Origin: Saprospiraceae bacterium
Lineage (GTDB): Bacteria; Bacteroidota; Bacteroidia; Chitinophagales; Saprospiraceae
Assembly: GCA_021739645.1 (NCBI GenBank)
Contig: JAIPBL010000015.1
Span: forward strand, 21,796-85,795
Direction of reading: 5' to 3'
DNA length: 64,000 bases
A program made the position numbers and the translations under genes. Positions 49,429-55,670 of the stretch are shown here, piece after piece (within the stretch, counting starts at the first letter, position 1; each line of letters opens with the position of its first letter). Under the pieces are notes generated by a model. That model had not been told where the DNA came from. It ran no database searches and was given only the letters and a program-made list of their open reading frames with translations.

Positions 49429-50478
49429 TCAAAATTTAGGGCATAAGATAAGGTCGTCTTCGTACTCCCCAAGATAAGCTACGGACATTTCAAAGGTGCC
49501 CCTATTGAATCCAGCGGTACTTCCAACATGAAAATCATAGCTAGTACCTATCAAAATATTGTTGAACTCGACGCCAACCAAAGCGACAACTGCATCCAAT
49601 CTTAAACTATTGTTGTAATCGGTAACTGGCCGAAGATAGCTTCCTAAATGCAATGACACCAAACGGAAATCGCTCAATGCTAACCGGAAATTTCCACCAG
49701 CATCAAGTTTCATGGAGCTTCCCTGGCTGTCAAAAATAGCCCTTGGCAAAAATGTTATTCCTTTGGAAACTGGAACCTGCGCACTCAACTGCGCAGAATA
49801 CCTAGGAGCAAGTTTGTTATCTGGCAACAAGGATTCACTATCTGTTTTATGGTAAAAACTGACGGTAGGATTCTGAAAATGGTGTATCGCACCGCCTATA
49901 AAGAATCTAAATTTTGACGACCTCGGCGCATAAGCATAATTTAAACCAACTGAAAAATCGCCGAAAGAAAAATTATTCTCTGGAAGACGCTCTTGGGATG
50001 GGTCAGAGTAGCCAGTTGTACCGTTGAATTGGTCTTCAAATGTGATGTTTCCAAAATTGAGGTTTCGTTGAACTATTCCAGCTTGAAAACCGAGCGAAAG
50101 AAACTGTGTGCTGCGGATATCCAATGCTTTGTGATACGCACCTGAAATTGAAATTTGGGTGGTTGAAAAATTGACGGCACCTGCTTTGTCTTGAAAGAAC
50201 ATCACCCCTACCGCCGCATGGTCTTTATGGCGGCTTTTGTCCTTCCCCATTCGCCAACGGAGATCGAGGGCGCTAGAAAAAGTCTGGTATGGTTCATCCA
50301 ATGCTTGTCGCCACTGGTCACGGTAAATAGAGGATACCCTGAATTTGCCCTCGAAGGCGCCTGTCAAGGCTGGGTTTAAGGTCAATGGCGAGGCATAAAA
50401 CTGACTGAACAATCGGTCTTGAGCCTGAATATTAAAAAAGAAGACGAGTAAAAAACTAGCTATGAAGAGTTTACGCAT
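49429..50478 (-). CDS. PorP/SprF family T9SS membrane protein
   Basis: 349 residues with a signal peptide (LFIASFLLVFFFNIQAQ) and the family opening DRLFSQFYASPLTLNPALTGAFEGKFRVSS...YRDQW. The rest alternates beta strands of an outer-membrane barrel (SISGAYHKALD, LSLGFQAGI, VGLNYAY) and ends near MSVAYLGEY. PorP/SprF proteins help individual type B T9SS cargo reach the surface and are normally encoded right after their cargo; here no cargo gene is adjacent. Confidence 0.9.
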   Translation of the reverse strand: MRKLFIASFLLVFFFNIQAQDRLFSQFYASPLTLNPALTGAFEGKFRVSSIYRDQWRQALDEPYQTFSSALDLRWRMGKDKSRHKDHAAVGVMFFQDKAGAVNFSTTQISISGAYHKALDIRSTQFLSLGFQAGIVQRNLNFGNITFEDQFNGTTGYSDPSQERLPENNFSFGDFSVGLNYAYAPRSSKFRFFIGGAIHHFQNPTVSFYHKTDSESLLPDNKLAPRYSAQLSAQVPVSKGITFLPRAIFDSQGSSMKLDAGGNFRLALSDFRLVSLHLGSYLRPVTDYNNSLRLDAVVALVGVEFNNILIGTSYDFHVGSTAGFNRGTFEMSVAYLGEYEDDLILCPKF

Positions 50479-50707: not shown

Positions 50708-51553
50708 ATGGACTTCGCCTTATGCCATCTCAGTGTTGTGCCCATACGCAGCAGCCCCTCCGATAAAAGTGAGCAGGTCAGCCAGTTGCTTTTTGGTGAA
50801 ATGGTGGAACTACTTGAATGGAAAGGCCGGTCTTGGATTAAAGTCCGATGCACCTGGGATAATAGTATTGGGTGGGTACAAAGCAGGCAAGTGAAACCAC
50901 TCACCAGCTCGGAACAAAAGCTTTTTACCGAAAAATTTGCCTACTGCCTCGACCTTTTTCAACCGCTCATGTCAAGCGATTTTGCGATGCCAATCCCCCT
51001 CGGTTCAAGGCTTCCTGACTTTGATGGCATGAAGTTCATCTTCGATGGTAAGTCCTACAATTATGCAGGGCAAGCAGTTTTTCCTGAAAATATAGAACCT
51101 ACACCTGAGCGGGTATTGAAAATCGCCCGCCGCTACCTTTTTGCTCCCTACCAATGGGGGGGGCGCAGCCCATTTGGAATTGATGCGGGTGGGTTCACTC
51201 AGATGACCTTTAAAATGGTCGGCATCCATTTGCACCGCACACCGGATGCCCAAGTTCATCAAGGCGAACTAGTCGATTTCATTGAACAATCACAGCCTGG
51301 CGACCTTGCCTTTTTTGAAAATTCAGCAGGTACCATTGCTCATTCGGGCATTTTGTTACCTGACGGTAAAATTATTCACACCGCAGAACAGGTGCGCATT
51401 GACCGCATTGACCATTTCGGAATTTTTGATGAAGAAACAAGCCGCTACACCCACAAACTCCGGGTGGCAAAACGAGTTTTAGCACAGCGGATTTCTCCCA
51501 AATTGGAGCAAAAAGAAGTTAAAAAGGAGTTGCCGCAGGCAGCTTTATTTTAG
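50708..51553 (+). CDS. NlpC/P60-fold protein lacking catalytic Cys
   Basis: 281 residues from the ATG at 50708 (MDFALCHLSVVPIRSSPSDK); the track start at 50636 is a TTG. One or two SH3b-like domains (PIRSSPSDKSEQVSQLLFGE ... WIKVRC) precede a C40 peptidase domain: YQWGGRSPFGID then AGGFTQM where active members have CSGFTQ. The catalytic Cys is Ala160 (codon GCG) and the next Ser is Gly; the catalytic His region IAHSGIL (His212) and IIHT remain. No signal peptide. Active relatives cut D-Glu-diaminopimelate bonds in murein; this one is predicted inactive and may only bind. Confidence 0.88.
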   Translation: MDFALCHLSVVPIRSSPSDKSEQVSQLLFGEMVELLEWKGRSWIKVRCTWDNSIGWVQSRQVKPLTSSEQKLFTEKFAYCLDLFQPLMSSDFAMPIPLGSRLPDFDGMKFIFDGKSYNYAGQAVFPENIEPTPERVLKIARRYLFAPYQWGGRSPFGIDAGGFTQMTFKMVGIHLHRTPDAQVHQGELVDFIEQSQPGDLAFFENSAGTIAHSGILLPDGKIIHTAEQVRIDRIDHFGIFDEETSRYTHKLRVAKRVLAQRISPKLEQKEVKKELPQAALF

Positions 51554-51592: not shown

Positions 51593-52996
51593 CTAAGGGT
51601 TCGCCATCACACCCAGCTTCCGCTCATTTTTCCAATAACCTCTTGTAAAGTCTGGAAACCGCACCGGAACGCTACCCAACTGAACAGACAGTTCTGAAAC
51701 CGGAGTCACCACTGACCAAGCGGCAGCATCGTACACATCCATGTCAAGTGCAACGCCACGATTTAGGCAATCAACCAGGCGCCACAACATCACGAAGTCC
51801 ATTCCGCCGTGTCCGCCGTTTTTCTCGGCAAGTGGCTCTAATTTTTTCCAAAGTGGGTGGGCGAATCGTTCTTGGTATTCCTTGTAATCTTCCTCTTTCA
51901 AAAAACCATGACCGTGTCCGCTCACCGAAAGTTTGCTTGGGTAGCCCTTGTGAAATGCCTTCGTGCCAGCCAGTGAATTGATGCGGCTGTAGGCACGGCC
52001 CGTCGCCACGTCATGCTGCAATAAAATGGTGCGGCCTTTAGCTGTTTTGATGAGCGTGTTGTTCATGTCGCCATGCTTGAAACCTTTTTTATTGTAAAAT
52101 TCATTGTCAGGTTCCACCGTCTGAGCATATTCGTCAAGACCGAACTGAGGGCTGCTCATGCTAACCAAGTAATCAAATCTGTCTCCACGGTCAATGTCCA
52201 TGTACTGAGCGACTGGCCCTAACCCATGTGTCGGGTAAAGATTGCCATCACGGGCTTCGTTGTGGCGGATACGCCACATATTATAGTAGTAGGTTTTACT
52301 GAAAAGCAACTCCCGGAGGTCGTGGATATAGGCGCACTCCGCGTAAGTGAGCGCTCCGAAAACACCACTTTGCGCCATGTTCAGCAGCCAAAGTTCCTCG
52401 TTGCCATAGCAGCAGTTTTCGAGAATCATGCAGTTTCGCTGGGTCTCCTCGGAGGTGTTCACCAATTGCCAGCACTCATCAAAAGTGAGGGCACATGGCA
52501 CTTCAATGGCCACATGTTTGCCCTGCTGCATGGCATAAACCGCCATTGGCACGTGGTCTTCCCACGGTGTAGCAATGGTGATGAGGTCAATATCGTCCCG
52601 CTTGCACAGCTCCTTCCAAGCATCCAGTTTGCCGGAATAAACCGCTGGTTTTTGCCCGCCATTTCCCTTCAGCATTTGAAGGCTTTTTTGGGCAAACTCA
52701 TCCCGGACATCACAAATCGCAGTGATTTTGCACTTATCTGTACCCACAGCATTGAGCAGTCGAACATGCTCTTCTCCTCGATTTCCAAGCCCAATAACCG
52801 CAACCCGCACTTGTTTTATTGCTGGCACCTTCAACCCAAAAACGGGTTTGCCAATGATGGGCATTGTCTGTGAAGCAGCTTCCACCAAGTCATTGGCATC
52901 GGCTTTGGCAAAACTGCGGTTGCTGGGAAGCCCGACCAGGGTGGCAAGTGCTGCCGCATTTTTCAGAAAACTCCGGCGTGGCTGTTTGTCCTTCAT
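51593..52996 (-). CDS. Gfo/Idh/MocA oxidoreductase, GH109-like
   Basis: 467 residues with a Tat-type leader (RRSFLKNAAALATL). The N-terminal Rossmann domain is VRVAVIGLGNRGEEHVRLL, then ATPWEDHVPMAVYAMQQGKHVAIEVP, and the C-terminal domain has ENCCYGNEELWLLNMAQSG and ECAYIHDLR, matching GH109 proteins (NAD-dependent alpha-N-acetylgalactosaminidases). It could equally be a GH109-like dehydrogenase of other specificity. The start lies 4 bp after the stop of the sugar dehydrogenase gene, so the two are an operon. Confidence 0.88.
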   Translation of the reverse strand: MKDKQPRRSFLKNAAALATLVGLPSNRSFAKADANDLVEAASQTMPIIGKPVFGLKVPAIKQVRVAVIGLGNRGEEHVRLLNAVGTDKCKITAICDVRDEFAQKSLQMLKGNGGQKPAVYSGKLDAWKELCKRDDIDLITIATPWEDHVPMAVYAMQQGKHVAIEVPCALTFDECWQLVNTSEETQRNCMILENCCYGNEELWLLNMAQSGVFGALTYAECAYIHDLRELLFSKTYYYNMWRIRHNEARDGNLYPTHGLGPVAQYMDIDRGDRFDYLVSMSSPQFGLDEYAQTVEPDNEFYNKKGFKHGDMNNTLIKTAKGRTILLQHDVATGRAYSRINSLAGTKAFHKGYPSKLSVSGHGHGFLKEEDYKEYQERFAHPLWKKLEPLAEKNGGHGGMDFVMLWRLVDCLNRGVALDMDVYDAAAWSVVTPVSELSVQLGSVPVRFPDFTRGYWKNERKLGVMANP

Positions 52997-53000
52997 TTTT

Positions 53001-55670
53001 TTAGTATTTGAATATTTTTAAAACTTCTTCTCGGTCTTCAGCGTAAACTTTGACAAGGTAGAGCCCATTAGCAAAGTCACTCATTTCGATTTCAACAGTG
53101 GTTCGTCCGGGCAAGGTAGCAATGCGTTTTTTTAAAACCAACTCTCCCAACAAATTGTAAAGTTCGATGTCAAAATTTGAAAAATCGGATGATTCAATGA
53201 CTACTTCCAGAACATCTTGAACCGGGTTGGGAAGGGCAAAAATTCGATAAGGCACAGTGAAACCACTGTCCACAATAATGGCCGAATAGAGTTGTGATTT
53301 TGGTATAAAATCCCTTGCTAGCTTGTCGCTGCTCCACAGCAACTGGCAAATGGCCTGGCCATCTTGTTCGTTGTATTCCAATTTAATGGGATAAATCAGC
53401 CCGCCCTTCAGGTCAATGGAAGCTGACTGCTCGACGGTGGGCGAGGTATACCAGCGGTCAATCAATTTTTCATTATTCACCCAGAGCCTGGCTCCATCGG
53501 TGTGGATGAAAAGATGGAAGCTCAACTTTTCATCAAAAAATGGCTGCACCCACCCCTCCCATCGAATCAAAAACCTGTCGAGGCCAAGGCCCGCTGTATC
53601 CGGGCTGCCATAGCCCCAGTTGAAGTTGACTGCAGAATCAATACGGTTGAAAAGATAGGGTTCTTCAAAAATGGTTCCGGCCATCCCCCGGTCATAATAG
53701 TAACCTGTTAGGCCTTCTCCCGTGCCAACTTGCCTGGCTGCCTTGTAAATGGCACGGAGGTTCAGGCCAGCGTCGTCAACTGGGAGGAGAAGTGTGGGGC
53801 TGGTTTCCCCGGTAGCCCATTTTTCAAACAGATAAACTGAATCCAGTGTCACATGGGATTTTGGTGCGTCAATTTGGTGCAGAACACCCGAAACGCAAAC
53901 CACAGTGTCGGGCGTTTCCAGTTTGTGCCCATCCACTAAAATTGGGAAACCTTGGGGCGAGGTTTGAACTACCAAATTGGTTTTTATGGGCAAAACATCC
54001 CTTGCCACGCTGGCCGATAGTCCGCTTATGTCAGTGACAGTCAAGTGAACCCGATACCAGATATCATCTGACACCTCGTTGGCGGCGGGTATTTGGTAAA
54101 ACTCCTCGGTAGTTTCCGAGACTGGGCCGAATGCTGGGTGCGAATGTTCGACATGGTGGAAGTCCACCCGCCAACGGAACCTACTGGCTCCTAAAACCCC
54201 ATCCTCGGCATCAGTGGCTTGGCCGAGCAGGTGAAGCCACTCCCCTCCCCTGAACCGGTCACCCTCTGCAGGACTGAACATCCCCGGCACGGGCCTGTGG
54301 CTCGATGTGACCCGCAACTCCGCCGTCTGACTGGTATCCATTCCCGAAGGATTTGTTACCATGCACCGTATCATGCTACCGCTGTCGCTCAACATAGGGT
54401 TTTGGTAAAAAAGCGTATCGTCCGTGGCACCAACGATGTCCACCCCATCCTTTTGCCATTGGAAACTCATCGGCGAAGCCCCAGCTGCAGCTACCCTAAA
54501 ACTAGTCTCCTCGCCTATCGGGACCAACACTGGCTGAGGTTGGATGGACACAAACGGTGCATCACTGCCGGTGTAAAACACCCGCCAAAGTGAGCCCGTG
54601 TTTGTAGCATAGTTGCTTTGTGTCCCATTTCTATCCAAAATATAAAGCGTGCCATCAGGAGCGGTATGGAGGTTCAGTGGGGTACGTAGGTTTTCAGCAA
54701 AAAGCTGAACGTCGCCACTGACATCACTGAGGGTGTAAATGCGGTTGTTGCAGTGCTCGGAAAAAAAAACTTTGCCTTCATATTCCGCAGGAAACATGGG
54801 CACTGCCGGGTTGTAAAGTGTGACGCCAACAGCGGCACATCCGAAATCGTGGTCATAGGCAAAGACCGGGTCTTTGTAGTTTGCGGGTGGCGACCCCACC
54901 AATTTGCCTTCCACATCTGGCCAGCCATAGTTTTTGCCTTTTTCTATTTCGTTGACTTCTTCGAACTGGTCACTGCCCACGTCGGTGGCGAAGATGCGCC
55001 CAGTGGCAGCATCGATGGTCATGGCAAATGGATTGCGAAAACCCATGGCCCAGATGGCCCGGTTGTTCCCGGTTGTTTCACCAAAAAAAGGATTGTCGGA
55101 TGGGATACTGCCGTCCGGGTTGATGCGGAGGATTTTGCCGAGGGTACTGTTTTTTGATTTGGCGTTGTCCTTGTCGAAGCCATCGCCCGTGGCGATGTAC
55201 AACTTGCCATCGTTGCCAAAGGCCAATGCCCCGGCGTTGTGATAAGGGCCGCTGAGCGGGTCGAGGTCGAGAAGAACGACTTCACTGCCGGGAGCGGCAA
55301 AGTTGCCATCCGCAGTGAAGCGGCTCACCCGGTTATGGCCTTCGTTTTTAACCGTATAATAAATGTAAACGAAGTGGTTCGTATCAAAATCAGGGTCGAG
55401 AGCAATGCCGCTCATGCCCCGCTCGGTGTAGCTGTCCACCTCCAATTCGAGGAATGGTTCATTGCGGAGCACACCATTTTCCACAATCATCACCCGGCCA
55501 AACTTTTCAACGATAAATACTCGGCCATCAGGCGCTAGGGCAAATGCAACAGGGTCAAGTCCAGTTGCGACTTGAACGGCAGCAAAGCCAGGAGGGAAAC
55601 TGGCATTTTGTGAAAAGAGCTTAAGTCCTGGTAAACAAAGCAGCCAAAAGGTTAGTAGTAAGTATTTCAT
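53001..55670 (-). CDS. Secreted PQQ sugar dehydrogenase-like, PA14, T9SS
   Basis: 889 residues. Signal peptide, then a six-bladed GSDH propeller (about 30-370: GLDPVAFALAPDGRVFIVEK, HNAGALAFGNDGKLYIATGD, RNPFAMTIDAATGRIFATDVG, NYGWPDVEG), an Ig-like domain (PMSFQWQKDGVDI), a sugar-binding-like stretch, a PA14 domain (about 650-790, GLTGYYYDRGMAG ... RLWVNNEKLIDRW) and a type A T9SS sorting domain (PNPVQDVLEVVIES ... NGLYLVKVYAED). The soluble-glucose-dehydrogenase-type propeller suggests PQQ-linked sugar oxidation at the cell surface; the substrate is unknown. First large gene of the operon with the GH109-like oxidoreductase. Confidence 0.9.
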   Translation of the reverse strand: MKYLLLTFWLLCLPGLKLFSQNASFPPGFAAVQVATGLDPVAFALAPDGRVFIVEKFGRVMIVENGVLRNEPFLELEVDSYTERGMSGIALDPDFDTNHFVYIYYTVKNEGHNRVSRFTADGNFAAPGSEVVLLDLDPLSGPYHNAGALAFGNDGKLYIATGDGFDKDNAKSKNSTLGKILRINPDGSIPSDNPFFGETTGNNRAIWAMGFRNPFAMTIDAATGRIFATDVGSDQFEEVNEIEKGKNYGWPDVEGKLVGSPPANYKDPVFAYDHDFGCAAVGVTLYNPAVPMFPAEYEGKVFFSEHCNNRIYTLSDVSGDVQLFAENLRTPLNLHTAPDGTLYILDRNGTQSNYATNTGSLWRVFYTGSDAPFVSIQPQPVLVPIGEETSFRVAAAGASPMSFQWQKDGVDIVGATDDTLFYQNPMLSDSGSMIRCMVTNPSGMDTSQTAELRVTSSHRPVPGMFSPAEGDRFRGGEWLHLLGQATDAEDGVLGASRFRWRVDFHHVEHSHPAFGPVSETTEEFYQIPAANEVSDDIWYRVHLTVTDISGLSASVARDVLPIKTNLVVQTSPQGFPILVDGHKLETPDTVVCVSGVLHQIDAPKSHVTLDSVYLFEKWATGETSPTLLLPVDDAGLNLRAIYKAARQVGTGEGLTGYYYDRGMAGTIFEEPYLFNRIDSAVNFNWGYGSPDTAGLGLDRFLIRWEGWVQPFFDEKLSFHLFIHTDGARLWVNNEKLIDRWYTSPTVEQSASIDLKGGLIYPIKLEYNEQDGQAICQLLWSSDKLARDFIPKSQLYSAIIVDSGFTVPYRIFALPNPVQDVLEVVIESSDFSNFDIELYNLLGELVLKKRIATLPGRTTVEIEMSDFANGLYLVKVYAEDREEVLKIFKY

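Follow-up and report, generated by a model that had tools for sequence, protein, structure and literature searches.

YkfC and dipeptidyl-peptidase VI (DPP-VI; PDB 3h41, 4r0k/3pvq and 3npf) are peptidases that combine an SH3b with an NlpC/P60 domain. The side-chain roles in the reading of murein peptides by BcYkfC have been described, and the equivalents of Tyr118 and Asp256 serve as markers of the YkfC/DPP-VI subfamily (PMC2954226). An NlpC/P60 protein with Ala in place of the nucleophile is RipD of Mycobacterium tuberculosis (Rv1566c; PDB 4jxb, 4lj1), a non-catalytic peptidoglycan-binding protein with an Ala-Ser-Glu triad (PMC12067865). Plasmodium SERA5, from an unrelated subfamily and organism, also has a papain-like fold with Ser for the catalytic Cys and a non-enzymatic role (PMC4671257). 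Here we describe an SH3b-NlpC/P60 protein of the YkfC/DPP-VI-like family, its nucleophile lost, that is encoded in a 64,000-nucleotide stretch of a Saprospiraceae bacterium genome (assembly GCA_021739645.1, contig JAIPBL010000015.1, positions 21,796 to 85,795; hereafter the window). On balance, the comparison of its orthologs favours reuse of a peptidase scaffold as a non-catalytic protein that is probably docked on the sliding clamp.

A YkfC-like protein without its catalytic cysteine

The gene occupies 50708..51550 (ATG at 50708, stop codon at 51551-51553; coordinates are window positions, forward strand unless stated otherwise) and encodes 281 amino acids. The SH3b domain lies at 50732..50890 (Pfam SH3_3 residues 9-60, SH3_16 residues 13-61) and the NlpC/P60 domain, residues 147-236, at 51146..51415 (Pfam PF00877, E=3.4e-19). 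The PF00877 profile score of 69.2 bits, against a curated cut-off of 23, and the Foldseek matches of the protein model to NlpC/P60 structures place it in the NlpC/P60 family. The AlphaFold2 model has a mean predicted local distance difference test score (pLDDT) of 92.7 and is confident apart from residues 261-281. Its closest structural matches are DPP-VI and YkfC, with template modelling scores of 0.76-0.78 to 4r0k and 3h41, and in domain architecture and fold it belongs with the YkfC/DPP-VI subfamily. No signal peptide or hydrophobic N-terminus was seen on inspection, and in most ortholog loci a stop codon is found a short way upstream. Phage relatives were limited to distant matches, and an Rfam search gave no matches.

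Where the catalytic Cys is expected the protein has Ala160, encoded by GCG (51185..51187, inside GGRSPFGIDAGGF). The other two active-site residues expected of a C40 cysteine peptidase are present: His212 of the catalytic dyad (51341..51343; YkfC His291) in the context IAHSG, and the third polar residue, His224 (51377..51379; YkfC His303), in the context IIH. An earlier note on this DNA had reported the replacement with the catalytic His kept, and reading frame, codon and His212 agree with it. It had also held that Ala lies more than one base change from a Cys codon and is no sequencing slip. GCG differs from TGT and TGC at all three positions, close orthologs in separate metagenome-assembled genomes encode the Ala by GCG, GCT or GCA, and a locus in a single-contig genome (L055 in G062) has Ser at position 160. 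An error of sequencing or assembly was rejected, as independent genomes repeatedly show Ala, Ser, Gly or Pro at this position. No other Cys was found within the NlpC domain (residues 130-260); Cys6, Cys48 and Cys80 are SH3b-region residues, the first of which was dismissed as a substitute nucleophile since Cys-active orthologs equally have it. Judged from its sequence, the window protein has almost certainly lost catalysis.

Orthologs, repeated loss and selection

A YkfC/DPP-VI-like peptidase, descended from an enzyme of cell-wall peptide recycling, is present once per genome throughout Bacteroidia, and the window protein is its ortholog in Saprospiraceae. Both in Saprospiraceae and across Bacteroidia each genome has one strong ortholog among the matches listed. 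Orthology within Saprospiraceae is further supported by a shared divergent neighbour, which in the window is a PorP/SprF-like membrane protein of the type IX secretion system (T9SS; 49429..50478, reverse strand). This neighbour is conserved in 120 of 154 Saprospiraceae loci (70/84 non-Cys, 50/70 Cys) and in none of 75 loci outside the family. With one strong ortholog per genome in the listed matches and a shared neighbour, a mixture of Cys and non-Cys paralogues was rejected. No peptidoglycan-recycling gene neighbourhood was found at the ortholog loci.

Position 160 is Cys in 70 of the 154 Saprospiraceae orthologs, and is otherwise Ala (32), Ser (31), Gly (15), Pro (4), Asp (1) or Thr (1); in 77 orthologs from other Bacteroidia families it is Cys in 76 and Ser in one. 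All relatives with at least 75% identity to the window protein have Ala, a conservation that the earlier note had proposed to check. The single Ser ortholog outside Saprospiraceae (L239; DSSGF) has also lost the SH3b Tyr and Asp178 and represents a separate Bacteroidia loss.

A FastTree phylogeny of 231 proteins, built with the active-site columns excluded, needs 13 changes of Cys state, all of which read as losses under sister-family rooting, and places the window protein in an all-non-Cys clade of 59 (FastTree support 92). For a subset of 72 proteins, analysed with IQ-TREE, 9 changes are needed. A tree forcing all non-Cys sequences together was rejected by the approximately unbiased (AU) test (p-AU 0.010), and a single ancient loss was rejected with it. 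The well-marked branches by themselves force just one change, so the exact number of losses is uncertain; from these trees we infer 9-13 separate losses in Saprospiraceae.

The ratio of non-synonymous to synonymous substitution (dN/dS), calculated from pairs at 80-98.5% identity after exclusion of many synonymous-saturated pairs, has a median of 0.051 for non-Cys and 0.043 for Cys proteins. Non-Cys reading frames remain intact across divergence down to about 50% identity. With a dN/dS of about 0.05, there is little doubt that the non-Cys protein is still functional. This ratio, together with the absence of the nucleophile throughout the close clade, bears out the earlier description of the protein as a pseudoenzyme.

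A clamp-binding-like motif at the C-terminus

Most orthologs outside Saprospiraceae stop no more than a few residues from position 258. Those of Saprospiraceae mostly extend further, through a divergent linker to Q-x-x-[LMI]-F. In the window protein the variable linker (51476..51535) is predicted to be disordered, with mean pLDDT values of about 45-52 for residues 261 onwards, and the chain ends in QAALF (51536..51550), which on motif comparison resembles the QxxLF pentapeptide that binds the beta sliding clamp (DnaN). Variants elsewhere in Saprospiraceae include QVELF, QIELF, QIPLF and QASLF. The motif was found in 84 of the 154 Saprospiraceae orthologs, 20-26 residues past position 256, and in none of the 77 outside the family. 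Of the 117 tails that exceed 10 residues, 78 have a terminal or one-from-end Q..[LMI]F, where shuffling gave a mean of 0.13, and the same motif occurs in only one of 835 neighbouring open reading frames of the ortholog loci. In six proteins the chain continues beyond the motif and still keeps it, so the terminal carboxylate is not the conserved feature.

The published consensus of clamp-binding C-termini is QLxLF or QL(S/D)LF (PMC4549789, PMC9690074), and QAALF is a pentapeptide of this kind conserved among orthologs. Clamp clients such as Y-family polymerases and transposases (PMC4549789) share with the window protein a C-terminal QxxLF on a disordered tail. Those clients act on DNA, whereas the window protein has the fold of a peptidoglycan peptidase and is a candidate client on the evidence of its sequence. 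The same genomes encode Y-family polymerase homologs that have QMNLF, QINLF or QIDLF close to the C-terminus, and several of these adjoin a second DnaE-like gene. For one such homolog (L313, G000 contig 126; QMNLF) the distance to the second DnaE-like gene is about 3 kb, and the region looks like an ImuB/DnaE2-type cassette. In the literature searched, the sliding clamp, clamp-binding and peptidoglycan came together in a single paper, which deals with a translesion polymerase.

Functional docking on the clamp through the tail is suggested with fair probability. On both trees the big clade and the L080 group are inferred to have had the motif before they lost Cys. In its looser form the motif is commoner in non-Cys (59/82) than in Cys (25/68) proteins, but pairs were too few for a test corrected for kinship. 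Several points weigh against docking as the account of these proteins. No match to the simple pattern was found in the replicative DnaE of these genomes, the main clamp client, which had been chosen as positive control, and position 2 of the motif is frequently Val, Ile or Ala and not Leu. About one third of Cys orthologs carry the motif, which therefore does not require pseudoenzyme status. The loss clades L120/L122/L127, L152/L158, L102, L132, L142 and L150 have no QxxLF tail, so docking cannot explain all losses. In pair tests corrected for phylogeny, the supported pairs were too few to reach significance.

The alternative that survives best keeps everything but the partner: the tail would bind some other cytoplasmic protein and not the sliding clamp. 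The shortness of the motif and the mismatch of DnaE speak for it. Set against these are the match to the published pattern, with Leu, Met or Ile at position 4 and Phe at position 5, and the QxxLF pattern of the Y-family polymerase homologs, and we regard another partner as a lesser, though real, possibility.

Erosion of the substrate pocket

Structure alignment with DPP-VI and YkfC identified Y53, Y148, W150, D159, S161, R177, D178, H212 and H224 as the equivalents of the YkfC pocket and catalytic residues. The five recognition positions among these read Ser53, Tyr148, Trp150, Gly161 and Thr178 in the window protein. Ser53 (codon 50864-50866) replaces the SH3b Tyr equivalent to YkfC Tyr118, Gly161 (51188..51190) replaces the Ser equivalent to Ser239, which binds the gamma-D-Glu carboxylate, and Thr178 (51239..51241) replaces the Asp equivalent to Asp256. 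The catalytic His pair and the equivalents of Asp237 and Arg255 are shared with YkfC and DPP-VI. The window protein differs from them in the missing nucleophile, the three replaced side chains and the added tail, and with Ser53 and Thr178 it lacks both subfamily markers, at which the Cys orthologs of the family have invariant Tyr and Asp.

All five recognition residues, whose YkfC equivalents hold L-Ala-gamma-D-Glu, are intact in 146 of 146 Cys proteins. Of the 85 non-Cys proteins only three retain the full set; six have three of the residues, 28 two, 35 one and 13 none. Non-Cys proteins do keep His212 (81/84), His224 (84/84), Asp159, Arg177 and Asp199, as well as Asp232, Asp235 and His236 (84/84). 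The readers of the free amine and of gamma-Glu were thus lost along with the nucleophile and the buried network stayed. Three proteins (L120, L122 and L127) combine Cys-to-Gly with five intact pocket residues and may bind murein peptide without cutting it. His212 is replaced as well, by Tyr, in only three orthologs (L123, L130 and L145).

Recognition of the ancestral substrate has probably been lost in the window protein. The eroded pocket argues against simple binding of murein peptides, which the earlier note had put forward, and leaves another ligand possible; the conserved cluster of His212, His224, Asp159 and Arg177 suggests that a small ligand may still bind. One alternative, by analogy with RipD, is a non-catalytic sensor or binder that reports on or sequesters some murein peptide, which need not be the original one. 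The retained fold, with Asp159, Arg177 and both His, would suit such a role, as would the closeness of the DPP-VI and YkfC structures. However, Tyr53 and Asp178, which bind the L-Ala amine, and Ser161, which binds the gamma-D-Glu carboxylate, have been replaced here, and the three positions drift freely among relatives. RipD also acts extracellularly, whereas the window protein has no signal peptide. It further differs from RipD in keeping both His, in its SH3b part and in the recurrence of the loss. We therefore consider a muropeptide binder unlikely.

Less likely still is a former active site that has taken on another chemistry or another ligand through the His pair (for instance as a metal site), with the tail as a separate regulatory feature. 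This reading would account for the contrast in non-Cys proteins between other, drifting catalytic-site residues and the near-complete conservation of the two His and of Asp232, Asp235 and His236. But position 160 (A, S, G, P, D or T) and the surrounding pocket are too variable for one defined site, and structural constraint can explain the conservation, as Cys enzymes conserve the same His and Asp residues.

Paralogues and an exported counterpart

The 6.16 Mb source genome encodes three NlpC/P60 proteins, namely the window protein, L004 and L005. L005 is MepS-like (176 residues, DCSG). L004 (G000 contig 30, 730-1941) is a lipoprotein-like protein of 403 residues with 27% identity to the window protein, in which inspection showed DCSGF, the full YkfC signature and a lipoprotein signal. 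It is the Cys-containing paralogue whose presence the earlier note had suggested checking. Because it carries a lipoprotein signal, L004 sits in another compartment than the window protein, and this counts against the proposal that the window protein regulates an active paralogue.

An L004-like lipoprotein was found in 66 of 248 Saprospiraceae genomes (E at most 1e-30). It is present in 42 of 80 non-Cys and in none of 70 Cys genomes (Fisher 3e-15, uncorrected for kinship), a distribution that resembles replacement. The lipoprotein is confined to genomes with a Cys-less cytoplasmic copy or with no strong ortholog listed, and it occurs in four loss clades. It is absent from the small ones and therefore explains only some of the losses. 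These patterns suggest that an exported, Cys-intact DPP-VI lipoprotein replaced the cytoplasmic enzyme in part of the lineages. In the 38 non-Cys genomes without the lipoprotein, another SH3b DPP-VI was found only as one fragment (G121). A dipeptide-epimerase-like gene co-occurs with the L004-like lipoprotein in 49 of 67 genomes, a pairing that matches the route through an exported YkfC which has been suggested in B. cereus (PMC2954226); the epimerase was not detected in the source genome, which has the lipoprotein. Co-loss of the L-Ala-D/L-Glu epimerase was also considered and not seen, since the epimerase-like gene is commoner in non-Cys (45/80) than in Cys (13/70) genomes.

That the protein is a relic decaying after such replacement would fit the restricted distribution of the exported paralogue and may hold for some single-tip losses, but the dN/dS and the intact frames of the non-Cys groups refute it for the window protein's clade and make it very improbable overall. 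Of the earlier interpretation, then, the pseudoenzyme is supported and its roles in murein binding and regulation are not; the recurrence across the family and the clamp-like C-terminal motif had escaped it.

On the other side of the gene the window encodes a GFO/IDH/MocA oxidoreductase whose C-terminal domain is of the GH109 type (51593-52996, reverse strand). Its neighbour at 53001-55670 is a GSDH-PA14 protein that bears a T9SS sorting tail.

A model for the retained scaffold

In the favoured reading, a cytoplasmic scaffold of the YkfC/DPP-VI type would have been retained for a non-peptidase job. The ancestor shared by most of these lineages would have added to the enzyme a disordered tail that docks on DnaN, and this second role would have become the reason for keeping the gene. 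Cleavage of murein peptides would then have turned dispensable, partly where that task passed to the exported DPP-VI lipoprotein. In its present form the protein would be a clamp-tethered binding or adaptor module, and our best guess for its role is that of an adaptor or ligand sensor.

The family offers a replicated natural experiment, in which one orthologous enzyme lost its nucleophile about ten times under selection that is still strong, and a comparison of the lineages can show in which order docking motif, pocket erosion and the exported replacement enzyme arrived. Binding of the tail to DnaN would mean that a cell-wall-peptidase fold has been recruited to the replication clamp. Tentatively, Saprospiraceae may thus possess a clamp-tethered pseudo-peptidase that, after docking and then repeatedly shedding catalysis, could couple the status of cell-wall metabolites or another signal to DNA replication.
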